64,000 nucleotides of DNA from Paenibacillus sp. sptzw28 (lineage in GTDB: Bacteria > Bacillota > Bacilli > Paenibacillales > Paenibacillaceae), in the NCBI RefSeq assembly GCF_019550795.1, contig NZ_CP080545.1, forward strand, positions 5,056,001-5,120,000, given 5' to 3'. Shown here in pieces: positions 760 to 52,037 of this stretch (its first letter is position 1; the number at the start of each line of letters is the position of its first letter). The position numbers and the translations under genes are program-made. The notes beneath the pieces are model-generated. The model worked only from the letters and a program-made list of their open reading frames with translations. It did not search any database and was not told where the DNA came from.

Positions 760-1120
760 TTTTTTGCGATGCTTCCCGAGTATTCTACTCGGCCGAGCAA
801 AAAACCCGCTTCGGAAGCATACACTTAGTTTTTTGCGATGCTTCCCGAGTATTCTACTCGGCCGAGCAAAAAACTCGCTTCGGAAGCATACACTTAGTTT
901 TTTGCGATGCTTCCTGAGTATTCTACTCGTCGAGCAAAAAACTCGCTTCGGAAGCATACACTTAGTTTTTTGCGATGCTTCCCGAGTATTCTACTCGTCG
1001 AGCAAAAAACTCGCTTCGGAAGCTTACGCTTAGTTTTTTGCGATGCTTCCTGAGTATTCTACTCGTCGAGCAAAAAACTCGCTTCGGAAGCATACACTTA
1101 GTTTTTTGCGATGCTTCCCG
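760..1120 (-). repeat. Leader tandem array 1, five full copies plus a partial of a 68-69 bp unit
   Basis: The T-run that opens each unit begins at 760, 829, 898, 966, 1034 and 1102, giving periods of 69, 69, 68, 68 and 68 bp. In pgi sense each unit reads ATGCTTCC, then GAGTTTTTTGC, a CTCGGCCGAG palindrome, the hairpin CGAGTA-GAA-TACTCG, then GGAAGCAT and GCAAAAAACT. The first and fifth parts are perfect inverted repeats; so are the second and sixth. The order A-B-A'-B' is pseudoknot-like. The array ends where the pgi SD begins. It is related to the arrays at 8827-9270 and 51747-52037. It is not CRISPR, because there are no variable spacers. Confidence 0.95.
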
Positions 1121-1220
1121 ATATGCTCGTGCCTGTCCCTCTTGCGCTAGCATAAGAATAATGGATTTTATATGCAAACACAAGGTAATCAAGGGCCAGA
1201 TTCTTCTCCGTCCCGATTTG

Positions 1221-1229
1221 TGATAAAAT
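1221..1229 (+). promoter_or_regulatory. Possible extended -10 promoter (TGATAAAAT)
   Basis: TG-A-TAAAAT lies about 40 bases before the start of the dehydrogenase gene at 1268. No good -35 is visible at the expected distance, so an extended -10 promoter is the best reading. Confidence 0.35.
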
Positions 1230-1267
1230 GGGTAAATCATAAAATCGGCTACAGGGAGATGGTAGAA

Positions 1268-2242
1268 ATGCAGAAAATCGGGTTTATCGGATTGGGTGTA
1301 ATGGGTGCACCAATGGCGGCAAATTTGCTTCGCAAAGGGTACAATGTGACAGTTTACAACCGTACGCCGGGCAAAGCGGACAAGCTCCTGGAGCTAGGCG
1401 CGGCCGAAGCTCAGACCCCGGCGGCAGTCGCCCGCGCATCGGAGCTGGTCATCACGATGATCAGCAATGACGACGCGATTCAGGAAGTTTATTACGGACA
1501 AGACGGGCTGCTAAGCGGACTCATGCCTGACACGATCGTAGTAGACAGCAGCACCATTTCCCCTTCCTTGGCTCGGCAGCTGGCCGCGGATGCGGCGGCG
1601 AAGTCGGCCGATTTCCTCGATGCTCCGGTTACGGGCAGCAAGCCGGCGGCCGAAGGCGGCTCGCTTGTATTTATGGTCGGCGGCGAATCAGACATACTGG
1701 AACGGGCTTCGGACGTGCTGCTTGCCATGGGCCGCAAAGTAATACCTATGGGACCAAGCGGCAGCGGCGCTACGGCGAAGCTGGCGCACAATACGATCGT
1801 CGGCATAAACGCTGCCGCATTGGTTGAAGGAATGGCTATAGCCGCAAGCGGCGGTATCGACGCTTCCTCTTTTCTTGAGCTGGTTCAATCCGGCGGAGCC
1901 GCGAGCAAAATAGCTGAATTGAAAGGACCGAAGCTGCTGGACCGCGATTTCAGCGTTCAATTCTCACTCGCTCTCATGCTGAAGGATCTCCGTCTCTCCT
2001 CGGTGCTCTCGGATCAGTTGAAAACGCCGACTCCGGTTCTCGAGACGGTTAAGGGTCTGTTCCAGATCGGGGATTCCATGGGTCTCGGCGATTTGGATCT
2101 CTCTGTGCTTGTTAACTGCTACGAGCAGTGGATCAACAAGCCAATCACCGGTAATGGACCGGCCGATCAAACAGAGCGCGAACTTGCAGCCGCTTCCGAA
2201 GCCGATAGACAAGTTACCGATTCCGGTAATAACAGGCCATAA
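1268..2242 (+). CDS. NAD(P)-dependent beta-hydroxyacid dehydrogenase (3-hydroxyisobutyrate dehydrogenase / 2-hydroxy-3-oxopropionate reductase family)
   Basis: A 324-residue protein. The N-terminal Rossmann motif IGFIGLGVMGAPMA (residues 4-17) binds NAD(P). The substrate loop DAPVTGSKPAAEGG is near 118-131, and the catalytic lysine of the family is K171 in GSGATAKLAHN. The C-terminus is about 30 residues longer than usual and polar. An earlier in-frame ATG exists at 1259, but the GGGAG at 1254-1258 is well spaced only for 1268. The exact substrate (hydroxyisobutyrate, tartronate semialdehyde or succinic semialdehyde) cannot be told from sequence. It is divergent from pgi. Confidence 0.9.
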   Translation: MQKIGFIGLGVMGAPMAANLLRKGYNVTVYNRTPGKADKLLELGAAEAQTPAAVARASELVITMISNDDAIQEVYYGQDGLLSGLMPDTIVVDSSTISPSLARQLAADAAAKSADFLDAPVTGSKPAAEGGSLVFMVGGESDILERASDVLLAMGRKVIPMGPSGSGATAKLAHNTIVGINAAALVEGMAIAASGGIDASSFLELVQSGGAASKIAELKGPKLLDRDFSVQFSLALMLKDLRLSSVLSDQLKTPTPVLETVKGLFQIGDSMGLGDLDLSVLVNCYEQWINKPITGNGPADQTERELAAASEADRQVTDSGNNRP

Positions 2243-2290
2243 TCGGCTTGAATCCGCGCGTCGGAGCTCAGGGCATACGGCAATGTTCTA

Positions 2291-2342
2291 TAAAAAAAGC
2301 TGTTCCTCCCGTTCAACAAACGGAAAGGGTGCAGCTTTTTTT
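2291..2342. terminator. Probable bidirectional terminator
   Basis: AAAAAAAGCTG pairs with CAGCTTTTTTT around a purine-rich loop, with A- and T-runs on both sides. It lies between the convergent dehydrogenase and ppnP genes. Confidence 0.7.
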
Positions 2343-2438
2343 CAATATTACGCCATTACGCTTTGAAGTACTTAACCAAGCGAGAAAGGCACCTGCGCAA
2401 AATGGTTCGTGCGGAGCCTTAGGACGTTTCACACTTCG

Positions 2439-2756
2439 TTATTCTTTAATATAAGAGCAGCAATAATCGGCAGCCGATGCCACCTGCAGCTTGAATTTGG
2501 AATTCGCCGGAACGGTAAACTCGCCTTCGCCGGAAATCGAGATCCACTCCGCATCTCCGGGTAGAAGAACCTTCAGGTCCCCTCCAAGAATCTCCATGAT
2601 TTCTTTCTCTTCCGTACCAAATTCGTACTCGCCCGGCATCATGATACCTAATGTCTTCTTCGTGCCGTCCGGAAACAGCACGGTGCGGCTCGTTACTTTA
2701 CCATCGAAATAGATGTTTGCTTTTTTTACGATCGTGACATTCTCAAATTGGGACAT
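2439..2756 (-). CDS. ppnP: Pyrimidine/purine nucleoside phosphorylase PpnP (DUF1255, YaiE family)
   Basis: A 105-residue single-domain cupin-like protein. The text [19 protein letters not shown] and the tail [11 protein letters not shown] with DYCCSYI are typical of PpnP, which splits nucleosides with phosphate. Length matches the family (about 94-105). It is monocistronic between a terminator at 2291-2342 and the tkt terminator at 2785-2826. SD-like AAGGAGAA precedes the ATG. Confidence 0.92.
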
Positions 2757-2784
2757 AGGTTGCGCAGTTCTCCTTTAAGTATAA

Positions 2785-2826
2785 TAAAACGGGGCTTGAA
2801 CCGCTGTGCAAGCGTCCAGCCCCGCA
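2785..2826 (-). terminator. Rho-independent terminator of tkt
   Basis: CGGGGCT pairs with AGCCCCG around a 21-base loop, followed on the minus strand by TTTTATT. Confidence 0.8.
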
Positions 2827-2854
2827 ATGTAGATGTGCGGTAAACGCGCCAGGA

Positions 2855-4870
2855 CTACAGAAGCGCTTTTACTTTACTGACGACATTCGCAACCGTAAAG
2901 CCGTATTCTTCGATCACGCGGTTGCCCGGTGCCGATGCGCCGAATGTGTTAATCCCGAGAATTGCGCCTTTGTCGCCCACATAACGCTCCCAGCCGAACG
3001 GTGATGCCATTTCGACAGCCAGACGCGCTTTGACGTCCGGAAGCAATACGGAGTCTTTGTAAGCTTGCGGCTGCTGCTCGAACAGATTCCAGCTCGGCAT
3101 GCTGATAACGCGGACCTGAATACCTTCAGCGGCAAGCGCCTGCTGCGCGGCAACGGCTAGCTGAACTTCGGAGCCGGTGGCAATAATTTGCGCTTTCGGA
3201 TTTCCGTCAGCCGCATCGGATACGACATAAGCACCTTTCGCAATGCCTTCGCGGGCATTCGTATTCGTGCCTTCAAGGATAGGCAGGTTCTGGCGCGTCA
3301 ATACGAGCGCGACCGGACTGCTGTTGTTCTCCAGCGCATAAGCCCACGCCGCCGAAGTCTCATTCGCGTCTGCAGGACGGATAACAGTGAGATCGGGAAT
3401 GATGCGCAGCGAGGCAAGCTGCTCGATCGGCTCATGCGTCGGGCCGTCTTCACCAACCGCGATGCTGTCATGAGTCAATACGTACACCACAGGCAGCTTC
3501 ATGATCGCCGCCAGACGTACTGCCGGACGGAGGTAGTCGGTAAATACGAAGAAAGTTCCGCCATATATTTTCAACCCGCCATGGAGGGAAATCCCGTTCA
3601 TAGCGCCGGCCATTGCGAATTCACGAACGCCGTAGTAGATGTTGCGGCCGTCGTAGCTGCCCGGTTTAAATACAGGCAAGCCTTTGAGATGAGTCATGGT
3701 CGAGCTTTCAAGGTCAGCGGATCCGCCTGCGAGATTAGGTACGTTCTTTGCTAATCCGTTTAATGCGTTTCCGGAAGCGACACGAGTCGATACCGGCTTG
3801 TCCGCAGTGGAATAGACCGGCAAATCCTTATCCCAGCCTGAAGGCAGCTTACCGCTGGTCGCAGTTTCGAATTGCGCAGCCAGATCGGCATGGGCCTCCT
3901 TGTAGGAAGCGAACAGAGCATTCCACTCCGCGTTTGCTTTCTCGCCGTTTGCTTTTACTTCCGCAAAGTGCGAACGTACTTGATCCGGTACGAAGAACGG
4001 TTCATTCTCCCAGCCGTAGACTTCTTTCGTAAGCTTAGTTTCCTCCGCGCCGAGCGGGGAACCGTGCGGGCCGGCATGACCGCCTTTGCCGCCCTTGTTC
4101 GGACTGCCGAAGCCGATTACCGTCTTCACTTCGATCAGCGTCGGTCTGCCGCTTTCCGCTTGGGCGGACGCGACTGCTTTCGCCAGCGCATCCAGGTCGT
4201 TGCCGTCTTCGACGCGCAGCACCTGCCAGCCGTATGCTTCGAAGCGCCCTTGGACGTTTTCTGAGAACGACAGATTCAGTTCGCCGTCAAGGGAAATATC
4301 GTTCGAATCATAAAGAACGACCAATTTGCCAAGCTTCAGATGGGCTGCGAGCGAAGCCGCTTCGCTTGCTACGCCTTCCATCAGATCGCCATCGCCGCAA
4401 ATCGCATACGTGTAGTGATCGATTACGTTAAAGCCTTCTTTATTATATGTTGCACCGAGATGGGCTTCGGCCATCGCCATACCGACTGCCATTGCGACGC
4501 CTTGACCAAGCGGTCCGGTTGTCGCGTCAACACCCGCCGTGTGGCCGAATTCCGGATGACCCGGAGTTTTGGAGCCCCATTGGCGGAAGCTTTTAAGTTC
4601 TTCAAGCGGCAGGTCGTAGCCCGACAAATGTAACAGACTGTACAGCAGCATCGAGCCGTGGCCCGCCGATAGAACAAAGCGATCGCGGTTAATCCAGCTC
4701 GGATTGGACGGATTATGTTTCATGTTCTTTGCAAACAATTGGTAACCCATCGGAGCCGCACCCATTGGCATACCCGGGTGACCGGAATTCGCTTTCTCAA
4801 CGGCATCGATCGAGAGCGTGCGGATCGTGTCGATAGAAAGCTGGTCAATGGACTTTTGAGTGACTGTCAT
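2855..4870 (-). CDS. tkt: Transketolase
   Basis: A 671-residue thiamine-diphosphate enzyme of the non-oxidative pentose phosphate pathway. It begins [28 protein letters not shown], the TPP motif [17 protein letters not shown] and the pyrimidine-domain text [16 protein letters not shown] are all present, and length is normal. An upstream in-frame ATG at 4888 would place the perfect SD GGGAGGAATT inside the coding region, so the ATG at 4868-4870 is the start. It is a single gene with its own leader and terminator. Confidence 0.97.
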
Positions 4871-5154
4871 TGCGTAAATTCCTCCCATTTCCTATTTACC
4901 GATTTTAGAATTCTTTCTGTCTATTGCGCAGTTTAATGCGCACTGGCTTTGAAATATTGTACCATTACATTTCAGCCATTTCCATCCTTAATGAGGTAAA
5001 GCGGTCAAAAGTTATCGGCACCCCCGCCTGTCTTGTCCACACTTATATACCAAATCATCCAAAGCTATTTTTGAACAAAGAGTTCCGTTCTCATTGAATT
5101 CAGATGTGAAATGCTGTTCACCTCCCTGAATATGGATTGAATCGGTCCTTATAC

Positions 5155-5169
5155 TTATCGTTTCGATAA
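5155..5169. promoter_or_regulatory. Inverted repeat TTATCG-TTT-CGATAA in the tkt leader, possible operator
   Basis: A perfect 6-bp inverted repeat with 3-bp spacer, about 18 bases downstream of the predicted tkt -10. TTATCGTTT occurs again at 5196-5204 inside the promoter. The rest of the stretch 4889-5316 shows no gene that I can support. Confidence 0.4.
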
Positions 5170-5186
5170 TAAATTGTCACTTTAAC

Positions 5187-5213
5187 AGTATAACGTTATC
5201 GTTTTGTTGTCAA
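5187..5213 (-). promoter_or_regulatory. Possible SigA promoter of tkt
   Basis: On the minus strand TTGACA (5208-5213) is followed after 15 bp by TATACT (5187-5192). The spacer is 2 bp short of ideal. The palindrome ATAACGTTAT (5190-5199) overlaps the -10 and could bind a regulator. Confidence 0.5.
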
Positions 5214-5316
5214 TGTGATAATTTCATGTGATCAGTACCGAAAAAATAACAGAATGACATTGTCTCTGTGGAGCAACCGAGTTTTAAAACTCAATAACAT
5301 AAGAGTGGAGACGAGC

Positions 5317-5366
5317 AATAAAAATAACGTGCAGGCCGGCCGTTGAGCCATCTGCACGTTATTTTG
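5317..5366 (-). terminator. Rho-independent terminator of purU
   Basis: CTGCACGTTATTTT pairs with AAAATAACGTGCAG around an 18-base loop, followed on the minus strand by more T residues. Confidence 0.85.
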
Positions 5367-5381
5367 CGCTATTATTGGAGA

Positions 5382-6281
5382 TTAATTGAAAGCAACCGTC
5401 TTGTTCTGATGCACCAAAATCCGGTCCTCGATGTGCCACTTCACCGCTCTGGCAAGAACAACACGCTCAATGGTCCGGCCAATCCGCTTCAAGTTGTCGA
5501 CATCGTCACGATGGCTGACACGCTGGACATCCTGTTCGATTATAGGACCGCCGTCAAGCTCCTCTGTTACATAATGCGCGGTAGCGCCGATGATTTTGAC
5601 GCCGCGCTGATAAGCCTGGGTATACGGTTTTCCACCAACGAAAGCAGGAAGGAACGAATGATGAATGTTAATAATACGGTTCGGAAACTGCTCAATGAAC
5701 TTGGGCGAAATAATCTGCATGTACCTCGCCAGCACGATCAGGTCCGCTTTACCTTTTACAGCTTCCATCTGCCGTTTCTCCGCTTCCGCTTTCGTATCGG
5801 CAGTTACCGGAATGTAATGATACGGTATCCCAAATGATTCCACCAGCTGACCCATGTCAGGGTGATTGCTGATAACCATTGCGATATCGGCTTCAAGGTC
5901 CCCTGCCTGCCACTGCCAGAGCAGCTCCAATAAGCAGTGATCCTCTTTGGAGACAAACACGGCAAGGCGCTTCTTGCGGCTAGCACGGAACGTATGCCAC
6001 TTCATCTCGAAGCGGTCGGCCACTCGGGCAAAATCCTCCTGCAGTACAGGGAGCTCGCGCTCCATATCGTTCAAATCAAATTCAAAGCGGATAAAAAACA
6101 TGCCGCCGCCCGGATCCATTGAATACTGATCCGATTGTACGATGTTCGCTCCATGTTCATAAAGAAATTGCGATACGGCCGCGACAATGCCCGGACGGTC
6201 CGGACAGGATATCAGCATTCTTGCGCGATTCCGCTTATCAGGCAGCTGCGAAAGCTGCCGGGGTTGATACGTGTTAGGCAT
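5382..6281 (-). CDS. purU: Formyltetrahydrofolate deformylase PurU
   Basis: Hydrolyses 10-formyl-THF to formate and THF, balancing one-carbon pools. It has 299 residues: an N-terminal ACT domain (ISCPDRPGIVAAVSQFLYEH, about 24-43) and a C-terminal formyltransferase fold with INIHHSFLPAFVGG and GATAHYVTEELDGGPIIEQ. The active-site Asn-His-Asp set of the family is visible (N in INIHH, H in HHSFLPAF, D in ELDGGP). It lies 56 bp downstream of nfo on the same strand, so they may be co-transcribed; a terminator follows. Confidence 0.96.
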   Translation of the reverse strand: MPNTYQPRQLSQLPDKRNRARMLISCPDRPGIVAAVSQFLYEHGANIVQSDQYSMDPGGGMFFIRFEFDLNDMERELPVLQEDFARVADRFEMKWHTFRASRKKRLAVFVSKEDHCLLELLWQWQAGDLEADIAMVISNHPDMGQLVESFGIPYHYIPVTADTKAEAEKRQMEAVKGKADLIVLARYMQIISPKFIEQFPNRIINIHHSFLPAFVGGKPYTQAYQRGVKIIGATAHYVTEELDGGPIIEQDVQRVSHRDDVDNLKRIGRTIERVVLARAVKWHIEDRILVHQNKTVAFN

Positions 6282-6337
6282 AAGCTTACAAACTTCCTTC
6301 CATCAACGATTGGTCATGCTGTCGTTATTTCCTCAAG

Positions 6338-7465
6338 CTATGCGTTCACAAGCAGCGATTTCCCCGCAAACCAGCCGGTGATACGCTGATTGACCGCTTC
6401 TTCCGAAAGCTCCGATAGAATACGGTTTTCGGCGACAAGATCGTAAAGACGGTCCATCGGTTCGCGAGGGTCGGCTTTTTTCGCTTTGGCGTCGTTCTTG
6501 AGCACATCCCAGGTGGCCAGGACAAATGCGCGGTGGTCAATATCCTGCTTTGTGAAGAAATGATGCAGCCGTTCGACATCGTCCAGGAATTGGCTGCCGA
6601 ACCGGTTCGCCGCATCGCCGCGCAACAAAGCGATTTCCGCTTCATACATTGGGCGCTGCGTTTTATCTTCCTGCCCGATCCAAGGCGTTTCAAGTATAAA
6701 AGGACGGCCTTTGAGTCCTTCATGATGAACGATGCTGCGTATCGCCTCGTAACCAAGCCAGCCCGCTCCTACCGGCGCATGGCGGTCCTTACCCGCGCCG
6801 CGCGGGTTCTTGCTGTCATTGATATGGACCACTGCAACGCGGTCCAGTCCTACAATACGATCGAAATCGGCAAGCACGCCGTCAAGATCGTCGATCAGAT
6901 CATAGCCTGCATCATGCATATGGCAGGTGTCCATGCAAACAGTCAGCCTTTCATTGTCGCGGACCTTATCGATGATACGCGCGATTTCCTCAAAGCTGCG
7001 TCCGATTTCCGTCCCTTTGCCCGCCATTGTTTCCAGCGCAATATTGACGTTCGATTCTTTGGTGCCTTCCAGCACCTCATTCAGCCCTTCCGCGATACGC
7101 TCGATACCGTAGTCCGCATCCTTGTCCGTATATGCCCCTGGATGAAGCACGATATTCCCAACGCCGATTTGGCTGGTCCGGCGAATTTCCTCCTGAAGAA
7201 AACGTACCGCAAGCTCGAAGGTATCTTCTTTATAAGAACCCAGATTTATGATGTACGGCGCATGTACGACAATCTCATCGATACCCGCCTCTTTCATTAC
7301 CGCCTTGCCTTCTTCGATGTATAAATCCTCAATCGGCTTCCGCCGGGTGTTCTGCGGAGCACCGGTATAAATCATAAAAGAGCTCGAGCCGTAAGAAACG
7401 GCTTCATTGGCGGCATTCAAAAGCCCCTTATCGGAAAATGAAACATGGGATCCGATTTTAATCAT
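6338..7465 (-). CDS. nfo: Endonuclease IV (AP endonuclease) with C-terminal extension
   Basis: Cleaves abasic sites in base-excision repair. The TIM-barrel metal ligands are in [58 protein letters not shown] and ILETPW. The catalytic core ends near residue 280. The protein then continues for about 95 residues ([16 protein letters not shown] to GKSLLVNA), which the 280-300 residue family members lack. The ATG at 7465 begins [10 protein letters not shown]. The tail is helical in character and of unknown role. Confidence 0.93.
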
Positions 7466-7721
7466 AAAATAGTTTCGCTCCCTTCATTGATCAGCCTGTG
7501 AACATTTATTAAAAGGTATTTCCGGAAAAAGCTTGTCCTGTTTATTTTACAGGGAATGCGTAAATAAATCTAGATTCAAGAAAGGCCCGGGTCACGCTCG
7601 TTCTTGCGGGCCGCAGCCGGCTTAGATTATAATAAAAGCAATTTTGTTGCCGAAATGGTGAACATTCCTCTGCCATGGTCATGTGCATAAAGAATAGGTT
7701 ATAATTCGTAGTAAGAGGTGA

Positions 7722-8168: not shown

Positions 8169-8169
8169 T

Positions 8170-8191
8170 GAGCCGCCGGATAGGCGGCTCT
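8170..8191. terminator. GC-rich stem-loop after the DUF2621 gene
   Basis: GAGCCGCC-GGAT-AGGCGGCTC is an almost perfect hairpin right after the stop codon. No T-run follows, so its terminator role is uncertain. Confidence 0.5.
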
Positions 8192-8318
8192 CGCTATATT
8201 GTTGGTGGTCAACGCATCGACGACTTTCACTCGTTCAGGCGCTGCATTCCTCAGGCGATTGAATGGAAACCTGGCAGGGTATACATACGTTAGAAGATAG
8301 CAGGAGGTGTTCCTAACT

Positions 8319-8822
8319 ATGGACACGAAATCATACAGCAGGAAAAAAAGCAGGAGCATTCATTTGCTTATTGTCGCCCTGATCGCATTAACGGCGGTAA
8401 CTGCAGGCTGCAGTGGCAGCAGCGGCAGCACTAATAACCCCGGCACCGAGGAAGGCGGGGTGACCAATGATGGCGGGGGAAACGGCGGTCAATCGGGTCA
8501 TTCCGGGATGACAGAACCGGACACGGCCAAGCCGAAGCCGTCCCAGCCGGGCAATAACAGAAGCGATGAACAACCGCCGAAGGATACAGCAGTATCGAAA
8601 GCTGAAGGAACATACGTGGGACAAGCAGACACGCACTCGGTTGAAATCAAGACCGCAGACGGCACAAGCGTTTTCCAATTCGATGCCAGCCTGGCTGAGA
8701 AGGTAGACAAAATCAAGGATAATTCACCCGTCGCTATTGAATATTACAGCAAGGAATACAATATAGAAGGTAAGAATGTTAAACAGCTGTGGCTGACCAA
8801 AATAGAAGCTTTAGGGTCCTAA
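8319..8822 (+). CDS. Predicted lipoprotein, function unknown
   Basis: A 167-residue exported protein. A basic N-terminus and hydrophobic stretch lead to the lipobox LTAVTAGC, so it should be lipid-anchored at the outer face of the membrane. A low-complexity Gly/Ser/Pro/Asn linker follows (about 30-85). A small globular domain then begins around GTYVGQADTHSVEIKTADG and ends NVKQLWLTKIEAL. An SD AGGAGG at 8302-8307 supports the ATG at 8319; a GTG at 8307 falls inside the SD. No specific family is recognised. Its stop codon is 4 bases before leader array 2. Confidence 0.75.
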   Translation: MDTKSYSRKKSRSIHLLIVALIALTAVTAGCSGSSGSTNNPGTEEGGVTNDGGGNGGQSGHSGMTEPDTAKPKPSQPGNNRSDEQPPKDTAVSKAEGTYVGQADTHSVEIKTADGTSVFQFDASLAEKVDKIKDNSPVAIEYYSKEYNIEGKNVKQLWLTKIEALGS

Positions 8823-8826
8823 ACGG

Positions 8827-9270
8827 ATGCTTCCGATGTGAGTTACCTGCGATCCTGCGCCGGAGGCTTAGCTTGGAAGCATCGCAGCAAACTCTTAGCT
8901 TATGCTTCCGATGTGAGTCTCCTGCGATCCTGCGCCGGAGGCTTGGCATGGAAGCATCGCAGAAAACTCTTAGTTTATGCTTCCGATGTGAGTTTCCTGC
9001 GATCCTGCGCCGGAGCTTAGCATGGAAGATCGCAGAAAACTCTTAGTTTATGCTTCCGATGTGAGTTTCCTGCGATCCTGCGCCGGAGCTTAGCTTGGAA
9101 GCATCGCAGAAAACTCTTAGCTTATGCTTCCAATGTGAGTTTCCCGCGATCCTGCGCCGGAGGCTTGGCATGGAAGCATCGCAGAAAACTCTTAGCTTAT
9201 GCTTCCGATGTGAGTTTCCTTGCGATCCTGCGCCGGAGCTTAGCTTGGAAGCATCGCAGAAAACTCTTAG
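8827..9270 (+). repeat. Leader tandem array 2, six copies of a 73-75 bp unit
   Basis: The ATGCTTCC that opens each unit begins at 8827, 8902, 8977, 9050, 9124 (ATGCTTCC, then A for G) and 9199. Each unit carries ATGCTTCC paired with GGAAGCAT, and GAGTTTCCTGCGA paired with TCGCAGAAAACTC. Units end CTCTTAG. In the last one this TTAG is part of the SD TTAGGAGG of the epimerase gene at 9283. The plan is the same as in array 1 but the interior differs. Copy 4 has lost two bases of the GGAAGCAT arm. Confidence 0.95.
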
Positions 9271-9282
9271 GAGGCTCAGTCA

Positions 9283-10185
9283 ATGAAGGTGGCGGTTACC
9301 GGTGGAACCGGGTTTGTCGGCGGTAAGCTTGTCGATGCGCTTCTAAAGCGCGGCGACGAGGTTTGGATCATTTCTCGGACTCCCGGCAGGCTTTCAAACG
9401 AAAGTAAGAATTTGCGCCGGGTTACCTGGAATGAGCTTGAAGCTTCTCCCGGACTTCTGGGCAATCTGGATGCGATTGTCAATCTGGCCGGCGAGTCCAT
9501 TAATCAACGTTGGACTGAAGATGCCAAGGTCCGGATCTTACAGTCCAGACTGGATGCAACGGAGCACATAGAGAGAATCATTGCCAAGATGGAGAAGAAA
9601 CCGGATGTTGTCATCAATGCTTCAGGCATATCGATCTACGGAACGTCTCAGGAGGCCGTCTTCGATGAGAACAGCCCGCCTGATGTAACCGATTTTCTTT
9701 CGGGAGTCGTTGAGAAATGGGAGGAAGCTGCGGATCGAATCGATGTTCCGCGTCTCGTTAAGCTCAGAGTGGGCATCGTCCTCGGCAGGAAGGGCGGCGC
9801 TTTTCCCCTTATGGCAATGCCTTACCGATTCTTTGTCGGCGGTAAAGTCGGCAGCGGAAAGCAGTGGCTCTCGTGGATTCACATTGAGGACATGACCCGG
9901 CTTCTGTTATTTTGTCTTGACGATCCTAATATATCAGGACCGGTTAACGCAGCCGCCCCCGAACCTGTAACCAACGACGCATTCGGACGTGTTCTTGGGG
10001 CTGCACTTAGAAGGCCGCACTGGTTTCCGGTACCGGCGGTGATGCTGAACATTCTGTTCGGCGAGCTTTCCCTGCTGCTGTTGGAAGGACAGCGGGCGCT
10101 TCCGAGAAAAGCATTATCACACGGTTTCGAGTTTCGTTATCCGACTATTTCCAGTGCCATGAAAGATCTAGTGGGGCGAGGATAG
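9283..10185 (+). CDS. TIGR01777 family epimerase (atypical SDR, YfhF/SDR39U1-like)
   Basis: A 300-residue NAD(P)-binding protein. The Rossmann motif TGGTGFVGGKLV is at 6-17, with NLAGESIN, a SIYG active-site region and VVEKWEEAA. The C-terminal DUF1731-type segment runs HWFPVPAVMLNILFGELS to EFRYPTI. Such proteins are widely conserved but their substrate is unknown. The SD TTAGGAGG at 9267-9274 is formed by the end of leader array 2, so translation of this gene should feel any structure the array forms. A strong terminator follows at 10195-10223. Confidence 0.9.
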   Translation: MKVAVTGGTGFVGGKLVDALLKRGDEVWIISRTPGRLSNESKNLRRVTWNELEASPGLLGNLDAIVNLAGESINQRWTEDAKVRILQSRLDATEHIERIIAKMEKKPDVVINASGISIYGTSQEAVFDENSPPDVTDFLSGVVEKWEEAADRIDVPRLVKLRVGIVLGRKGGAFPLMAMPYRFFVGGKVGSGKQWLSWIHIEDMTRLLLFCLDDPNISGPVNAAAPEPVTNDAFGRVLGAALRRPHWFPVPAVMLNILFGELSLLLLEGQRALPRKALSHGFEFRYPTISSAMKDLVGRG

Positions 10186-10188
10186 TTC

Positions 10189-43067: not shown

Positions 43068-43075
43068 TGTATTAT

Positions 43076-44119: not shown

Positions 44120-44175
44120 CGCATATCGCCTGCAGCCAGCAAATATTAGAGACACTATACTATATTTGGGCCGGA

Positions 44176-44215
44176 AATAAAAACAGCTCGCCGCAGCGGC
44201 AAGCTGTTTTTATTA
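44176..44215. terminator. Bidirectional terminator
   Basis: ATAAAAACAGCTCGCCGC pairs with GCGGCAAGCTGTTTTTAT (one mismatch), with A- and T-runs, between convergent genes. Confidence 0.88.
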
Positions 44216-44226
44216 ATTAAAGGCGC

Positions 44227-45321: not shown

Positions 45322-45423
45322 TCAGTAATTCCTCCCAAGGCACCCCATCGGAATACGCCGCATCATAAGGATAAACATAAACTAAGTAATGAAAGAAAAA
45401 GAAAAGCGGTATCTAAGGGCGGA

Positions 45424-46071
45424 CTATTTTCCAACCGGTGTGCCCTGTCCGCGGGCGGCCCACAGGAAACCCCGGCGCATAAGCTCCATCGTTTGCGGCA
45501 TAGCCACAATATTTGCCTGATGCCCCAGCGTGTTATAGTAAACACGGCCTTCTCCCCATGTTTTGGTCCACACAACCGGCATTTTCACATCTCCGAACGA
45601 GGTGGTCGCATGCACCCTTACAGCCGGATCAACATGCATATAATACTGTTCAGAGCATACCACGAAATCACCGATCCCTGCAGTGAGCGGGTCTTCGGAA
45701 TCGGTCATATTCACATCGTACACCACTCCATCATTGCCCGGGTGGGCAACCCATTGACCGCCGACCATATACTGATACTCCACCTCATTGCGGAAAGAGT
45801 CGGCCATTCCGCCGTGACAGCCGGCGATCCCGCAGCCAGCCTGGACAGTATCAAGCAGTGGTCGGAGCTGCGCTTGTTCAATTGTGCCCATCGTCCATAC
45901 CGGAACTATAAGGTCCAGCCCCGCCATAAGCTCAGCGTCCTTATATGCGTCAAGCGTACCCGAAACGGTTACTTCAAATTCTTCCTTGCGCAGCATATCG
46001 GCAAAAATGGCGGACACTTCCTTGGGCTCATGGCCGTCCCAGCCGCCCCATACGATCAGTGCTTTTCTCAT
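45424..46071 (-). CDS. ThuA-like protein (glutamine-amidotransferase-like fold)
   Basis: A 215-residue protein with KALIVWGGWDGHEP at the start, GLDLIVPVWTMGTI, AGCGIAGCHGGMADSF (equivalent of the nucleophile elbow), and WGEGRVYYNTLGH near the end. ThuA-like proteins accompany sugar-oxidation genes such as 3-keto-glycoside catabolism. AGAAGGGAGAG precedes the ATG at 46071. The tail WAARGQGTPVGK ends it. Sits between two oxidoreductase genes. Confidence 0.88.
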   Translation of the reverse strand: MRKALIVWGGWDGHEPKEVSAIFADMLRKEEFEVTVSGTLDAYKDAELMAGLDLIVPVWTMGTIEQAQLRPLLDTVQAGCGIAGCHGGMADSFRNEVEYQYMVGGQWVAHPGNDGVVYDVNMTDSEDPLTAGIGDFVVCSEQYYMHVDPAVRVHATTSFGDVKMPVVWTKTWGEGRVYYNTLGHQANIVAMPQTMELMRRGFLWAARGQGTPVGK

Positions 46072-46096
46072 AGTTCTCTCCCTTCTCTTAATAAAT

Positions 46097-47260
46097 TTAC
46101 CGAAGCTCGGAAAGTGAGACCCAGCGTCGTTCTTCAATTGATTTATCCACGGCTTCCAGTACAGCCTGACATTCGACGCCGTCAAAGAAATTCGGCACCG
46201 GCTGCCGGTCTTCTGCAAGCGCCAGCATAAATTCATGCAGCTCATGGGTAAACGTGTGCTCGTAACCTATGGTATGGCCTGCCGGCCACCAAGCATCGCT
46301 GTATGCATGCGCCGGGTCTGTCGCAAGCACTCGCCGGAACCCTTGCACATCCGCTGCGTCGTCGCTGAAGTAAACCTCCAGCTCGTTGACCCGCTCGAAA
46401 TCGAACTTGATGCTCCCTTTACTGCCGTTAATTTCAAAAGCATTCGTGCATCGGTGACCGGGCGCAAATCGAGTCGCTTCAATGCTGCCCAGCGCGCCTT
46501 CGGCAAATCTGGCCAGAAACAGTGTTGCATCGTCGACAGTTACCGGTCCGCGCGGGGCATCTTTATCGCCTTTGGCGCTAAGTCCGGTCATGGCCGTCGG
46601 AACCGGCCGCTCTTTCACGAATGTTTCGCTCATGCCGATAACTTCCTGGAATTCCCCCACGAGGAACCTAGCCAAGTCGATGACATGAGCTCCAAGGTCT
46701 CCATGTGAACCTGAGCCGGCGATTTCCTTCTGCAGACGCCAAACCAGCGGGAAATCCGGATCGACGATCCAGTCCTGAAGGAACCATCCGCGAAAGTGAT
46801 AGATTTTCCCTATGCGCCCCTCTGAGATCAGCTTCTTTGCAAGCTGTACGGCGGGAGCAAAACGATAATTGAAGCCCACCATATGCTTGACACCGGCTTG
46901 CTCGGCGGCGTTCAACATTTCGATGGAATCGGCCAAATTCAGCGCCAGCGGCTTCTCACAAAAAATATTTTTGCCTGCAGCGGCGGCGGCTAGAGCAATC
47001 TCCTTGTGCGCATCGCTTGGGGCATTAATATCAATCAAATCAATATCATTGCGGGCGATCAATTTGCGCCAGTCGGTCTCCGCGCTCTCCCAACCGAACT
47101 GCGCTCGCGCTTGCTCCACCCCTTCCGGGTCGCGCCCGCAAATCGCCTTCATCTCCGGTTTTAACACTTTCGGGAAAAACATCGGCAGCGCCCGGTAAGC
47201 GTTGCTATGTGCCTTTCCCATGAATTTGTAGCCAATCATACCGACACGTACATTGCTCAT
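46097..47260 (-). CDS. Gfo/Idh/MocA-family oxidoreductase
   Basis: A 387-residue NAD(P)-dependent dehydrogenase. VGMIGYKFMGKAHSNAYRAL (Rossmann), CEKPLALN with the catalytic lysine, GDLGAHVIDLARFLVGE with the Asp/His pair, and ANFFDGVECQAVLEAVDKS-like text near the end (NFFDGVECQAVLEAV) are typical of the YcjS/YteT-like group. Together with ThuA it suggests oxidation of a glycoside or sugar acid. Confidence 0.92.
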   Translation of the reverse strand: MSNVRVGMIGYKFMGKAHSNAYRALPMFFPKVLKPEMKAICGRDPEGVEQARAQFGWESAETDWRKLIARNDIDLIDINAPSDAHKEIALAAAAAGKNIFCEKPLALNLADSIEMLNAAEQAGVKHMVGFNYRFAPAVQLAKKLISEGRIGKIYHFRGWFLQDWIVDPDFPLVWRLQKEIAGSGSHGDLGAHVIDLARFLVGEFQEVIGMSETFVKERPVPTAMTGLSAKGDKDAPRGPVTVDDATLFLARFAEGALGSIEATRFAPGHRCTNAFEINGSKGSIKFDFERVNELEVYFSDDAADVQGFRRVLATDPAHAYSDAWWPAGHTIGYEHTFTHELHEFMLALAEDRQPVPNFFDGVECQAVLEAVDKSIEERRWVSLSELR

Positions 47261-47297
47261 CGATAAGTTCCGCCTCTCGAAGAAAATGTTGTTCCTT

Positions 47298-48359
47298 TTA
47301 CCCTAATCCTTGCAAGGCCAATGGCCCAGAAGATACGCGAACGGCCAGCTGTACCGGCAGTTTTACGGAAAATCCGTTTTTCTGTTCAGGCGTCCCCATA
47401 ATGATGTCGAGCAGTCTCGATGCCGCCTCACATCCGATTTTGTAGAAAGGGACGGAAATCGACGAAAGCGGTGGATCGGTCAACCGCGCACCGTCCGAAT
47501 CATCGCAGCCGAACAGAGCGAGATCTTTGCCAACGTATACGCCGCATTCCTTCAATCCTTGGAGCAAACCGATCGCCATCCGGTCATTTGCGGCAATAAC
47601 TGCATTCTTCCGTCCATTTCCCAGCAGTCGTGCAACCGCTTCCGCATGTTCATATCCGCTCTTCTGGCTGTAATTGCCTACAAGCACCATGGATGGGTCA
47701 TACTCAAGCCCAGCCTCCGAAAGTGCCTGGCGATACCCTTCAAGCCGGTCCAAACTGTTGGAATAGACGGATGGTCCATTAAGAAAAATAATGCGTTCAT
47801 ACCCTTGGCCGATCAGATGTTTCGCAGCGGCATAGCTGCCCATTCGCTGATCAGCGTCGACAGTGTTGTAGGGTTGGCCATCGAATCGCTGATTCACTAG
47901 GCAAAATGGATATTGCCCCTCCTGAAGCTCGGAAAGCGCTGCCCGTTCATCCGGAACATCCTGGGCGCCAAGAATAATGCATCCGTCAATTTTTTGCATC
48001 CGGAACAAATCCGCATATTCTCTTGGCTCCTCCGGCTTTCGAAACAACAGCAGTAAATCGTAGCCGCGTTCTTTGGCGGTTATGCCAATGCCGCTCAGTA
48101 TTTCGGAAAAGTAATACGTTGAGAACAGGTTCACTTTGGGCAGCAGCGGCAGGATAACACCGAGATTTCCGCTCTTGCTGCGGGCAAACCGCTGCGCAAG
48201 CGCGCTTGGGACATAATTCAACTGCCGCGCGGCCGCCATGACCCGCTCTCGAGTGTCCTCCTTAACCGGTCCCACGCCGTTCAGTACGCGCGAAACCGTG
48301 GCTTCCGACACACCGGCAAGCTTAGCGACCTCTTTTCTACGAATAAGTCCTTCCTCCAA
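47298..48359 (-). CDS. LacI-family regulator of the oxidoreductase/ThuA cluster
   Basis: A 353-residue repressor. The helix-turn-helix is RKEVAKLAGVSEATVSRVLN, the hinge LNYVPSALAQRFA, and the effector domain SGNLGVILPLLPKVN to FGCDDSDGARLTDPPLSSI. TTG at 48359 is taken as start. GGAGGAAGG just inside the frame would better serve a rare ATT at 48344 (giving MRRKEVAKLAG), so the true start is uncertain. First gene of a four-gene unit; an operator lies on its promoter. Confidence 0.9.
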   Translation of the reverse strand: MEEGLIRRKEVAKLAGVSEATVSRVLNGVGPVKEDTRERVMAAARQLNYVPSALAQRFARSKSGNLGVILPLLPKVNLFSTYYFSEILSGIGITAKERGYDLLLLFRKPEEPREYADLFRMQKIDGCIILGAQDVPDERAALSELQEGQYPFCLVNQRFDGQPYNTVDADQRMGSYAAAKHLIGQGYERIIFLNGPSVYSNSLDRLEGYRQALSEAGLEYDPSMVLVGNYSQKSGYEHAEAVARLLGNGRKNAVIAANDRMAIGLLQGLKECGVYVGKDLALFGCDDSDGARLTDPPLSSISVPFYKIGCEAASRLLDIIMGTPEQKNGFSVKLPVQLAVRVSSGPLALQGLG

Positions 48360-48379
48360 TCCTTAAGTGCATCAGCACT

Positions 48380-48422
48380 ATGTACACGCGTACATTTTCT
48401 CATGATCATATACGGCTGTCAA
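48380..48422 (-). promoter_or_regulatory. Promoter with overlapping LacI-type operator
   Basis: On the minus strand TTGACA (48417-48422), a 17-bp spacer and GAAAAT (48394-48399). ATGTAC-ACGC-GTACAT at 48380-48395 overlaps the -10 edge and the expected transcription start, so the repressor encoded just downstream likely regulates itself and its operon. Confidence 0.75.
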
Positions 48423-48574
48423 TAAGAAAACTTGCTCTACCGGACAAAAAAGATATCCATCTCTTCCCACATTTCAACCTAAGCTACAATTTTTTTCTTG
48501 TTGATTGTAAACAGTTCCTTTATACTAAGAAAGTCTATTTTCGAACATTTTATGACAAAGGGGATTTAAGACAA

Positions 48575-48919
48575 ATGAACTACAATATCGCTCAAAAGAG
48601 TCAGCTTGACGCTCGCGAATTGCTCCTGTTGGAATCGGAAGTGAAGAATCAGGGGAAAAACATGGTGGTAGCCTATATTCTCTGGTATTTTCTTGGCATA
48701 TTCGGGGCGCACCGTTTCTACATGAAGAAGACAGGCACGGCGGTAACTCAGCTAGTTTTATCCATTACTGTTGTAGGTCTGATTGCAACGTCTATATGGT
48801 GGGTGATCGACGCATTTCTCCTGCACACATGGGTAAAAGATCATAATCGTAATGTAGAAGGTAAAATCATGGATGACATCTTTGCCCAAAAGCACTTCAA
48901 TAATGCAATGAACCGATAG
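48575..48919 (+). CDS. TM2-domain membrane protein
   Basis: A 114-residue protein. After a polar N-terminus the TM2 hairpin reads VAYILWYFLGIFGAHRFYM, K-rich turn with KKTGTAV, then LVLSITVVGLIATSIWWVIDAFLL. The GAHRFY and WxxDxFL signatures are intact. C-terminal part is charged. AAAGGGG precedes the ATG. The second TM2 gene follows 12 bases later; they share layout and probably arose by duplication. Function unknown. Confidence 0.88.
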   Translation: MNYNIAQKSQLDARELLLLESEVKNQGKNMVVAYILWYFLGIFGAHRFYMKKTGTAVTQLVLSITVVGLIATSIWWVIDAFLLHTWVKDHNRNVEGKIMDDIFAQKHFNNAMNR

Positions 48920-48931
48920 GAGCCTACGCAG

Positions 48932-49369
48932 ATGCTCTCCAAACAAGATTTGTCTCTAAACGAACTTATGGTCTTTACCTCTGAGCTGCGTGCGGCCGAG
49001 AAGTCAACGGCAACAGCCTACCTGATGCTTATAGGGGGGCATCTTGGCCTTCACCGCTTTTACTTAAAGCGGAAAGGAACCGCAGTCGCCCAATTAATAC
49101 TATTTGCAGCCGCTGCGATTTTTTATTTCGTAATGGCAGTCGCAAGCGAGATAGGCTCGGACATAGCTGCAATCGTCTCGATTATTTTGTTCGTCCTTCC
49201 CGCGCTAGCATTATTCATTTGGATTATGGTAGATTTGTTCCTGCTCCCTCGCATGATTCGTGAGTTTAACGAAGTTATTGAGCGGGAGATTCTTGATCAA
49301 ATCGAACACTTTCGCCGGATGGAGCAGCTCGCCGGCAGAGGGCGTCCGGATGAGGCGCAGCAAATGTAA
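48932..49369 (+). CDS. TM2-domain membrane protein, second copy
   Basis: A 145-residue protein with a TM2 hairpin: TAYLMLIGGHLGLHRFYL, KRKGTAVAQLILF, a longer hydrophobic region with an extra helix (DIAAIVSIILFVLPALALFI) and WIMVDLFLLPRM. The C-terminus is charged (EILDQIEHFRRMEQLAG). TAGGAG lies before the ATG. Operon partner of the preceding TM2 gene; a terminator follows. Confidence 0.87.
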   Translation: MLSKQDLSLNELMVFTSELRAAEKSTATAYLMLIGGHLGLHRFYLKRKGTAVAQLILFAAAAIFYFVMAVASEIGSDIAAIVSIILFVLPALALFIWIMVDLFLLPRMIREFNEVIEREILDQIEHFRRMEQLAGRGRPDEAQQM

Positions 49370-49380
49370 CACACATGCAA

Positions 49381-49422
49381 AAGACCTCGAATCGCCAATT
49401 TGGCGCCTCGGGGTCTTTCTTT
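49381..49422. terminator. Terminator after the TM2 pair
   Basis: AAAGACCTCGA pairs with CTCGGGGTCTTT with an inner GCC-AATTT-GGC stem, then TCTTTAT. Confidence 0.75.
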
Positions 49423-49492
49423 ATAGAGAATATTCGATATTCGCTAACACCGTCGTTATGGAAGGAGTTAATCGTTTCTTTTGTGTGCTGTT

Positions 49493-51079
49493 TTAGGGAG
49501 CCATCTCGAGAAACTTCGAGGTCGGGTTCTTATCCATCGCCGTGCGCATCGCGTACTCGTTCTCAAACAATGCCACGTAGTTGCCTTTCTTATCCTTCAC
49601 CAGCGAAGAGTTAATCCGGAACTTCGAAGGATCGACCTTCTCATCGACAATCCAACGGGCAAACTGGAACTGCATCCGATGCAGTTGTATTTCAACGCCG
49701 TATTCAGCGCGCATCCGATGTTCAAACACCTCGAACTGCAGTTGTCCTACTACACCAAGTATCGTTTCATCAAAATTACCGGTCGAGTGGAAAACCTGGA
49801 TTGTCCCCTCTTCCGTCAGCTGATCGATACCCTTCTGATACTGCTTGTGCTTGAGTGCGTTCTTAACGGTAACTTTAGCAAAGAGCTCGGGCGAGAATGT
49901 CGGCAGCTCATCGAACACGATGTCGCTTCCCTGTGACAGAGAATCCCCGATGCGGAATATCCCGGGGTCGAATAATCCTATGATGTCGCCTGGAAAAGCA
50001 GATTCGACAATATCGCGGTCCTGGGCGAGGAATTGCTGCGGCTGCGAAAGCTTGATTTCTTTACCTGCGCGCACATGCCTGACGCTCATTCCCCGTTCGA
50101 AACGGCCGGAGCAAATTCGGAGAAACGCGATTCGGTCGCGGTGCGCCGGGTTCATATTCGCCTGGATTTTAAAAATGTACCCCGAAAACTTCTCGCTGGT
50201 CGGCTCCACTGAACCGTTTGTCGTGTTGCGTGAAGTCGGTGAAGGCGCGAGCTGCAAGAAGTTTTCCAGGAACGTCTGGACACCGAAGTTATTAACCGCG
50301 CTTCCGAAGAACAGAGGCGTCAGCTCGCCCGCCCGAACTTTGTCGAAATCAAACTGGTCCCCGGCGACATCAAGCAGCTCCAAGTCTTGAACCAGCTGGT
50401 CATGAAGGTAGTCGCCAGCCATCTCCCGAATAACCTGATCATTATAATCCGACACAGGCCGTACGGAAATCGTCGAATGGTCATCGCCTTGAAACAGTTC
50501 AACCTGATTTTTCATGCGGTCATATACGCCGCATAGCTCTCTTCCCATGCCGATGGGCCAATTCATCGGTACGGCCCGGATACCAAGCACGCGCTCGATC
50601 TCTTCCATTAAATCAAACGGGCTTTGTCCCTCACGGTCCAATTTATTAATGAAAGTGAAAATCGGAATGCCACGCTTGCGGCACACCTGGAACAGCTTGA
50701 TTGTCTGCGCCTCTACACCTTTGGCGACATCGATCAACATGACCGCGCTGTCTGCCGCAGTGAGCGTCCGATAGGTATCCTCACTGAAATCCTGGTGACC
50801 TGGTGTATCCAGTATATTGACGCGGTGGCCGTTATAGTCAAACTGCATCACGGAAGAAGTGACCGAAATACCACGCTGCTTCTCAATTTCCATCCAGTCG
50901 CTCGTCGCATGCCGGCTCGCTTTGCGCGCTTTCACCGTTCCGGCTAGTCGGATAGCTCCCCCGAAGAGCAGGAGTTTCTCGGTCAGCGTCGTTTTGCCCG
51001 CATCCGGATGAGAGATGATCGCGAATGTCCGCCGTTTTCCGACTTCTTGTTTTAATTCATCTGTCAACGTTTTGCTCAT
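49493..51079 (-). CDS. prfC: Peptide chain release factor 3
   Basis: A 528-residue translational GTPase that removes RF1/RF2 after termination. G1 SHPDAGKTTLTEKLL, G2 region RGISVTSSVMQF, G3 DTPGHQDFSEDTYR, G4 FINKLDRE, and the RF3-specific C-terminal text VGQLQFEVFEHRMRAEYGVE are present. Normal length. It begins 19 bases after the cyclase gene, so zwf-array-cyclase-prfC may be one transcript. Confidence 0.96.
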   Translation of the reverse strand: MSKTLTDELKQEVGKRRTFAIISHPDAGKTTLTEKLLLFGGAIRLAGTVKARKASRHATSDWMEIEKQRGISVTSSVMQFDYNGHRVNILDTPGHQDFSEDTYRTLTAADSAVMLIDVAKGVEAQTIKLFQVCRKRGIPIFTFINKLDREGQSPFDLMEEIERVLGIRAVPMNWPIGMGRELCGVYDRMKNQVELFQGDDHSTISVRPVSDYNDQVIREMAGDYLHDQLVQDLELLDVAGDQFDFDKVRAGELTPLFFGSAVNNFGVQTFLENFLQLAPSPTSRNTTNGSVEPTSEKFSGYIFKIQANMNPAHRDRIAFLRICSGRFERGMSVRHVRAGKEIKLSQPQQFLAQDRDIVESAFPGDIIGLFDPGIFRIGDSLSQGSDIVFDELPTFSPELFAKVTVKNALKHKQYQKGIDQLTEEGTIQVFHSTGNFDETILGVVGQLQFEVFEHRMRAEYGVEIQLHRMQFQFARWIVDEKVDPSKFRINSSLVKDKKGNYVALFENEYAMRTAMDKNPTSKFLEMAP

Positions 51080-51098
51080 TACCCTATTCCCTTCATAT

Positions 51099-51728
51099 TT
51101 ACATGCCGCCGATCAGAAATGCACGCGCCGGAGCAGCTTCGATACCTGTCAGCTTAAGCGGAGCCACAGCCATAAAGTAAGTGCCGGCAGGCACATTCTT
51201 AAGCCGCAGTCCTTCAACGATAATGATACTGTTTCGGAATAGCGAGCGGTGAGTGGGATATTCCGCTTGAGCGCGTTCAATGCCCAGCCCATCCGTCCCG
51301 AGGCCCCTGATACCCAGTTCGACCAGATAACGGGCGCCGTCCTCCCGAAGGAAAACAAAGTTGAAGTCGAATTCTTCGCTGAAGGAATTGCGCGTTTTAA
51401 ATATAACCCAATCGTTCTTCTGCAGTCCAAGCGGTTCCAAGTCGGCACGAGTAATATACTCTTCGCAATGTGTCAGATCAACAACACGAGCATGGCCAAT
51501 CAACTGTTCAAGGCCGATCGTCTCGATCGTCTCGCCGTTTTCCAGCATATGCAGCGGAGCGTCTACATGCGTTCCGGAATGAACATTCATGTCGATGCGG
51601 GATTCATACACGGCCTGGCCGTTCTCATGGTTTGTAATATTCGTTATTTTCGGTTTTTTCTCTTCTTTATTGTTGAAGACCTGCATGCTCTCCTGAATTG
51701 TCATGGAGATATCATATATTTTGAGCAT
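51099..51728 (-). CDS. Cyclase family protein (kynurenine formamidase/KynB-like)
   Basis: A 209-residue metal hydrolase. The family motif HSGTHVDAPLHM supplies His/Asp metal ligands, and RGLGTDGLGIER and a trailing LKLTGIEAAPARAFL are typical of the cyclase/formamidase fold. The ATG at 51728 has AGGAGGT at 51737-51743. The reading frame stays open upstream through array 3, but the SD and the motif position argue for this start. No other kynurenine genes are visible, so the substrate is unknown. Confidence 0.88.
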   Translation of the reverse strand: MLKIYDISMTIQESMQVFNNKEEKKPKITNITNHENGQAVYESRIDMNVHSGTHVDAPLHMLENGETIETIGLEQLIGHARVVDLTHCEEYITRADLEPLGLQKNDWVIFKTRNSFSEEFDFNFVFLREDGARYLVELGIRGLGTDGLGIERAQAEYPTHRSLFRNSIIIVEGLRLKNVPAGTYFMAVAPLKLTGIEAAPARAFLIGGM

Positions 51729-51746
51729 GGAATGGTACCTCCTCAG

Positions 51747-52037
51747 GCGTTTTGCGGGAGCAAAACGCAGCTTCGTAAGCATTTGCTTGGCGTTTTGCGG
51801 AGCAAAACGCAGCTTCGTAAGCATTGCTTGGCGTTTTGCGGGAGCAAAACGCAGCTTCGTAAGCATTTGCTTGGCGTTTTGCGGGAGCAAAACGCAGCTT
51901 CGTAAGCATTTGCTTGGCGTTTTGCGGGAGCAAAACGCAGCTTCGTAAGCATTTGCTTGGCGTTTTGCGGGAGCAAAACGCAGCTTCGTAAGCATTTGCT
52001 TGGCGTTTTGCGGAGCAAAACGCAGCTTCGCAAGCTT
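51747..52037 (-). repeat. Leader tandem array 3, seven copies of a 41-43 bp unit
   Basis: GCGTTTTGC begins at 51747, 51790, 51831, 51874, 51917, 51960 and 52003. In cyclase sense each unit reads ATGCTTACGAAGC, then GCGTTTTGC-TCCC-GCAAAACGC (one C lost in some copies), then CAAGC. It fills nearly all of the gap between the zwf stop (52047) and the cyclase SD. It shares the ATGCTTnCGAAGC and GTTTT.../...AAAAC arms with arrays 1 and 2, with a shorter interior and without the GGAAGCAT arm. Confidence 0.95.

Follow-up and report, generated by a model that had tools for sequence, protein, structure and literature searches.

A tandem hairpin element joined to ribosome-binding sites in Paenibacillales: a candidate translation-initiation cassette

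In a 64,000-nt stretch of the genome of Paenibacillus sp. sptzw28 (positions 5,056,001–5,120,000 of the 6.10-Mb chromosome; hereafter the window), three tandem arrays of a hairpin-bearing unit end directly beside the Shine-Dalgarno sequences of three different genes, and the same element recurs before start codons throughout this genome and across the order. We propose that the element is a translation-initiation cassette, consisting of a hairpin and a ribosome-binding site, which was spread by copying and enlarged in tandem; its action on initiation is inferred, and we give this proposal an even chance of being right.

Three tandem arrays end at Shine-Dalgarno sequences

Tandem Repeats Finder delimited the arrays at 758–1121 (68 bp × 5.3), 8827–9270 (75 bp × 6.0) and 51746–52035 (43 bp × 6.8), with copies 93–97% alike within each array, and together with reading of the units this bears out an initial annotation of the window that had placed such arrays before pgi, a TIGR01777 gene and a cyclase-like gene. 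The extents assigned from the units are as follows, and all sequences are given in the sense of the downstream gene.

749..1121, minus strand: array 1, five full 68-69 bp units and a partial first unit, ending AAAACTTTTAGGAGG before pgi
749..824, minus strand: terminal unit of array 1, with hairpin arms and Shine-Dalgarno sequence, from alignment, structure and covariance-model match
8827..9275, plus strand: array 2, six 73-75 bp units, ending at TTAGGAGG
51738..52037, minus strand: array 3, the compact form, seven 42-43 bp units, filling the spacer between zwf and the cyclase-like gene

Each unit starts with the 12-mer ATGCTTnCGAnG, with a few one-letter departures in these arrays, and continues with a 5′ arm that is T-rich (U-rich in RNA), the loop, and a 3′ arm rich in A. 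In each array the final unit ends TTAGGAGG or TGAGGAGG; the array ends before the three genes read TTTTAGGAGG, CTTAGGAGG or CTGAGGAGG, and all three lie 8–11 nt upstream of the start codon. Their orientation to the gene is the same, as had been annotated. In place of the Shine-Dalgarno ending, the inner units have TTAGCTT, TAAGTGT, CAAGCA or something close to these. Of the motifs that had been proposed as common to all arrays, two need correction. The string ATGCTTnCG fits most units, the departures being AAGCTT in one of the five full units of array 1 and in the first unit of array 3, and ATGCTTCCA in one unit of array 2. The 5′ arm GnGTTTnnTGC does not fit array 3, where the arm is GCGTTTTGC, and what is common to all three arrays is the complementarity of the arms.

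The element recurs before start codons throughout the genome

The pattern given in the initial annotation contains no letters of the ribosome-binding site. Searched over the whole genome with the reversed pattern as control, it gave 40 matches in 17 clusters, compared with none for the control, and 17/17 clusters end in one orientation at GGAGG, or one letter off, followed by a start codon. Random placement relative to genes, named beforehand as the outcome that would speak against a selected element, was thus not found, and the matches form one element family with a rule of position that is not due to chance. A covariance model (R1), built on 14 terminal units and including the Shine-Dalgarno sequence, gave 154 matches in this genome. 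The listed matches were grouped by hand into 54 clusters, to which array 3, absent from the listed matches, was added, giving 55 clusters and at least 55 loci. In 53 of these 55 clusters the end of the match, which in R1 takes in the Shine-Dalgarno sequence, is no more than 13 nt away from a start codon with a reading frame of at least 40 codons; the two exceptions are L061, with the start codon at 28 nt, and L074, which has none. The element is oriented toward the following gene in 54/55. A second pattern without ribosome-site letters, ATGCTTNCGANG, had 218 genome matches compared with 18 for its reversed control. Among the places listed, which cover the genome up to 3.0 Mb, 22 fell outside the clusters: 13 were further elements with a Shine-Dalgarno sequence and a start codon (the hairpin being degenerate in L081 and L088), two bore the hairpin without a gene (L091 and L097), and seven were chance-like, six of them inside long reading frames.

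The genes behind the element include gyrA, parE, mutS, atpD, guaA, hslV, a cheY-like gene and pgi, where gyrA, parE and pgi were identified by scores on partial proteins and the cheY-like gene scored below its cut-off. Copy number per locus ranges from one to ∼33. Five clusters hold no strict motif, having a deviating one, and the others hold up to seven, apart from 20 in the mutS cluster L065 (G000:C1:3005336-3006935), which at 1.6 kb, with 49-bp spacing and ∼33 units, is the longest array seen. A single strict motif was found in 19/55 clusters, hence the multi-copy state, which had been regarded as part of the element, is not essential. A change of copy number in the mutS array could alter mismatch repair. 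At L074 (∼4724417) and L097 (∼2526717) of G000, unit copies lie within another intergenic repeat (CCCCCTAAATCCCCCTGAGCATATGCTTCCGATG...) with no gene after them, and the element was possibly captured there by another mobile repeat.

The arms of each unit form a conserved hairpin

The two arms are complementary within each unit, and the RNA structure suggested initially is borne out by compensating changes in them. In an alignment of the 14 terminal units (A2), 95% of the cells of the arm helix are paired; a single arm pair appears variously as CG, GC and UA, with seven double changes. For 89 terminal units from this genome and congener genomes, a set which includes a few chance chains, the arm duplex energy was −11.4 kcal/mol compared with −7.5 kcal/mol (standard deviation of means 0.22) when arms were swapped between arrays. 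Moreover, parE leaders of congeners carry quite different arms, for example GAGTTAATTGC/GCAATTAACTT and GAGTTTTTAAGC/GCTTAAAAACTT. An exact-pattern scan of one genome per species in 84,980 species yielded at least 120 stretches; the 5′ arm was not part of the pattern, and AGTTTT was found as the 5′ arm in 113/120 distinct sequences, compared with a shuffled mean of 0.4. The next two pairs beyond this core were Watson-Crick in 96/107 and 83/107 (permuted means 64 and 45, permuted maxima 74 and 61). Because the arms vary by gene and species yet remain complementary, the predicted hairpin is well supported.

Pairing is within one unit. In four arrays with mixed arms (L128, L137, L144 and L169, chosen after the table was seen) the same-unit partner was better in 9/9 cases, which decides against pairing of the 3′ arm of one unit with the 5′ arm of the next; when all 40 informative neighbours are counted, 18 favour the same unit and nine the previous unit, the others being near-ties. 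In L128 (a parE leader, G016) and L137 (G002) two unit types alternate as ABAB or ABA, which suggests unit exchange between arrays or higher-order duplication. A further variant, at L189, L197, L204, L222, L223, L231, L247, L285 and L295, has AACTC or a similar string directly 5′ of the AAAACT arm, thus providing two possible partners for the 5′ arm.

Conservation is much higher in the 12-mer ATGCTTnCGAnG than in the loop and the arm tops, as would be expected if a protein or small RNA bound the 12-mer or the hairpin and co-controlled many genes, with the arrays as multivalent platforms. Such a regulatory switch could also draw on a second complementarity, ATGCTTCC/GGAAGTAT, which overlaps the hairpin in alternating a-b-a′-b′ order, so that two folds or a pseudoknot are possible. 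However, this second pairing, present in 81% of cells of the 14 terminal units, shows no double change, its 3′ half is absent from compact units, and contingency is only suggestive, so the second helix is not established. The downstream genes also look unrelated, and we consider a switch unlikely.

Gene-to-gene copying and tandem growth of the units

Identity between units at unlinked genes reaches 92%, with the loop counted in. Across 406 pairs of long units the median identity was 0.70, with 26/406 at 0.80 or above, and in the 14 closest pairs the 3′ flanks were 0.12–0.38 identical, which is near random; the 5′ flanks were 0.20–0.60 identical, the higher values occurring where the preceding unit is itself the flank. 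The element thus occurs as dispersed, near-identical copies with unrelated flanks, in the manner of a miniature inverted-repeat transposable element (MITE). By eye, empty sites are seen before the TIGR01777 gene in G010, G011 and G013, which have only 6–13 nt between the stop codon and GGAGG, and in G021 a compact form, its motif deviating, occupies the place that the long form has in the genome of the window; nine congeners that share the end of the upstream gene have a short, array-less spacer between zwf and the cyclase-like gene. Taken together, near-identical units at unlinked genes and empty congener sites show, on comparison of the sequences, that units have been copied from gene to gene, and that arrays expand and become homogenised where they stand. 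The Shine-Dalgarno sequence may or may not be copied together with the unit, since GGAGG commonly precedes genes in any case.

These same observations, near-identical units with nearly random 3′ flanks and empty congener sites, would favour a selfish dispersed repeat of the BOX, repetitive extragenic palindromic (REP) or MITE kind, which comes to lie before ribosome-binding sites through a Shine-Dalgarno-like target preference or through survival of harmless insertions, any effect on expression being incidental. The stem arms, however, vary by gene and species with compensating changes, contrary to a fixed recognition sequence, the orientation toward the following gene is almost without exception, and terminal inverted repeats or target duplications were not seen by eye in single-copy loci or in empty compared with filled sites, although no dedicated search was run. 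We regard a purely selfish repeat as possible but doubtful. A related idea is that of a mobile element which targets the Shine-Dalgarno region, that is, a hairpin cassette of ∼40–80 nt that copies in the sense direction into the space bounded by GGAGG and, on the upstream side, by a stop codon or promoter, multiplies in tandem, and repeatedly rewrites the initiation regions of Paenibacillaceae housekeeping genes; we put this forward tentatively, with perhaps one chance in a few, and the mobilising route may be a single-strand transposase, reverse transcription or gene conversion.

Distribution over genomes and orthologous genes

R1 matches at an E value of 1e-4 or below were found in 156/198 genomes of the order; some 24 candidates were scored per genome, so that per-genome counts are lower bounds. 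Among 299 genomes sampled across the phylum only four had matches, all of the family of the window and one of them its own genome. In the 84,980-species scan, all 80 titles listed were Paenibacillus or Paenibacillaceae. Outside the genome of the window, 115/121 matches are followed, 4–11 nt past GGAGG, by a start codon with a reading frame.

A survey of orthologues, with one locus taken from each of 22 same-genus genomes, shows the element before gyrA in 3/22 (a fourth, G010, is weak at E 0.012), parE in 9/22 and pgi in 7/22, and by eye before the TIGR01777 gene in 2/22 and, with a good match, before the cyclase-like gene in 1/11. With the genome of the window left out, the orthologous leaders of these five genes in congeners carry it in 17/94 cases, or in 9/73 without parE, which was picked after matches had been noticed nearby. 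The 21 congeners hold at least 788 matching units in total, ∼38 per genome; among what we take to be ∼6,000 genes per genome, fewer than 1 in 100 genes would therefore carry one by chance. The frequency of 17/94 exceeds this, hence the element is kept at orthologues, which again argues against the selfish repeat. The same holds for collections of mobile DNA: no match was found in the phage collection, one in the plasmid collection (75% identity, on a 2.7-Mb Paenibacillus replicon) and one in the viral collection, an exact match (L346, on a 17-kb IMG/VR contig) that could be the host flank of a provirus.

Position of the arrays within transcripts

The genes and the promoter-like block next to the arrays of the window are the following.

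3..737, minus strand: pgi (glucose-6-phosphate isomerase), N-terminal part, running off the window; NCBIfam PRK14097 over 241 residues with 383 bits, the cut-off of 443 being set for the whole protein
1150..1192, minus strand: promoter-like block upstream of array 1, from by-eye comparison and consensus scan
9283..10182, plus strand: TIGR01777 family (yfcH-like) gene behind array 2, above the curated cut-off
51102..51728, minus strand: cyclase/arylformamidase-like gene behind array 3; TIGR03035 with 113.6 bits, below the cut-off of 223
52047-53603: zwf, upstream of array 3; TIGR00871, above the cut-off

The initial annotation took the arrays for parts of 5′ leaders, and comparison agrees in that promoter-like blocks common to congeners stand upstream of two arrays. 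By eye, the block upstream of the gyrA array is common to many of the 22 same-genus genomes, including array-less species, and the block upstream of array 1 is also found in the pgi leaders of array-less congeners. A consensus scan upstream of array 1 gave TTGATT-16-TAAAAT at 1192–1165, the sole pair on the strand of the gene, with two pairs over both strands where 0.5 was expected. Array 2 begins 4 nt past the TAA of an upstream reading frame (8307–8822), and array 3 occupies the spacer behind zwf. More generally, in 20/55 clusters no more than 50 nt separate the start of the array from an upstream stop codon on the same strand (open frame of at least 80 codons); at least two of these clusters (L065 and L076) also have a −10-like box close upstream. 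By comparison, the promoter-like blocks and the places just past upstream stop codons locate the arrays inside mRNA, as 5′-leader or intercistronic RNA elements.

The stem-loop of the aprE leader and STAB-SD are 5′ mRNA stabilisers of single-gene leaders. The element resembles them in combining a leader stem-loop with a strong Shine-Dalgarno sequence, and they provide a possible mechanism; it differs in being a dispersed family that occurs between cistrons as well. If it were mainly such a stabiliser and not a translation element, a stem-loop and a strong Shine-Dalgarno sequence near the 5′ end would be expected, and exact TATAAT boxes do lie 16–20 nt upstream of some arrays (L048, L065 and L080). 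This explanation fits promoter-proximal loci. It does not fit the intercistronic ones, because the 20 arrays just past an upstream stop codon would, if co-transcribed, be far from the primary 5′ end. Overall we think it improbable that stabilisation is the main role.

A putative translation-initiation module

In the cassette that we favour, the unit comprises the conserved 12-mer and the hairpin, and the A-rich 3′ arm of the last unit ends ∼3–5 nt before the Shine-Dalgarno sequence, which is followed by a normal spacer and the start codon. The hairpin would then border the initiating 30S subunit on its upstream side and serve as a translation-initiation module, keeping initiation independent of the upstream sequence or cistron. 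The message might also be protected through bound ribosomes and 5′ structure, and extra copies might add spacing or roadblocks and thus tune output. Insertions before useful genes would be retained because the element would work before almost any gene. The nearly constant spacing of hairpin, Shine-Dalgarno sequence and start codon points to such a role in initiation, as do the occurrence both at promoters and between cistrons and the retention at some basic genes. In predicted folds of 52 chains, four of them pieces of the mutS array, the region of the start codon was a little more open than in shuffled sequences (0.485 compared with 0.445; 37/52; p = 5e-4).

Several observations weigh against this reading. 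In the same folding set, predicted accessibility of the Shine-Dalgarno sequence equalled that of shuffles (0.324 compared with 0.331; higher in 26/52), so that insulation of the Shine-Dalgarno sequence by folding is unsupported. When seven terminal leaders were folded alone, only array 1 was clearly below shuffles (z −3.6; others −0.1 to −1.9), and the third pair beyond the conserved arm core was not above permutation (31/107; mean 23, maximum 37). Presence is patchy across congeners at all five genes tested, hence no tested gene needs the element. Nor was a shared function found among the downstream genes of this genome, as judged by eye without an enrichment test, and the common gene function of a single-pathway riboswitch or leader is thus lacking. 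The patchiness and the gene functions without a theme would suit the selfish repeat as well.

The conserved ATG of ATGCTT could in principle start a translated leader peptide. However, a Shine-Dalgarno-like string lies upstream of 0/199 motif ATGs, and lengths and frames vary, which rules out this candidate for practical purposes; we consider it extremely improbable.

Relation to known elements

At gathering scores Rfam matched only 13 tRNAs in the window and not the element; these tRNA genes are clustered densely on the minus strand at 62794–63985. At E up to 1, four element loci gave only a T-box leader (RF00230) elsewhere in L013 (1182–1458, minus strand), ∼550 bases from the element, which is on the opposite strand. 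Rfam cis-regulatory families are likewise structured leader RNAs, and in the loci tested the element matches none of them, in keeping with the initial statement that no named element has this layout. Searches of open-access papers gave none that we recognised as describing it. Papers containing the 12-mer were, among the matches listed, unrelated by title. The main text of a Paenibacillus riograndensis start-site paper (PMC5670726) does not contain the word ‘repeat’, and a term search of the main text of two structured-RNA surveys (PMC11109978, PMC6429828) gave no mention of Paenibacillus.

The nearest analogue is the TAACTGA direct repeat of Beggiatoaceae, Cyanobacteria and Bacteroidetes, which precedes start codons and for which a post-transcriptional role is proposed, as yet unproven (MacGregor 2015, PMC4679880). 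Like the element, these are short tandem repeats, many per genome, directly 5′ of the starts of unrelated genes including essential ones. Their unit, however, is a 7-mer, and canonical ribosome-binding sites are described there as rare in repeat-containing spacers (PMC4679880), whereas the present unit has ∼40–80 nt and a covarying hairpin and adjoins a strong Shine-Dalgarno sequence. TAACTGA heptamers are absent from the arrays read, so the unit is different while the placement before start codons agrees. The BOX element of Streptococcus pneumoniae, described as boxA-boxB(n)-boxC with similarity to insertion-sequence terminal repeats (PMC3049150), is also a dispersed small hairpin repeat; its inner module is repeated in tandem a variable number of times, and it affects genes that lie downstream. 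In contrast to BOX, units alone make up the arrays read, with no flanking modules seen (no boxA/boxC model was run), and the element faces genes in a single orientation and meets the Shine-Dalgarno sequence at a fixed point. Dispersed repeats and leader hairpins are thus known kinds; a tandem cassette of hairpin and ribosome-binding site before housekeeping genes across an order is a new form, and the copying between genes and the spread over the order go beyond the initial annotation.

An abundant, order-wide leader element before basic genes, DNA gyrase included, is present in no RNA library tested. If the element does set translation or mRNA life, it would be a layer of gene control missed by annotation and a ready-made expression part; the Paenibacillus group is used for crop inoculants and as enzyme producers. 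Should it be mobile and target the ribosome-binding site, it would represent a new mode of harmless existence for selfish DNA. Natural variants of copy number and arms at one gene in different species permit direct tests of these possibilities.

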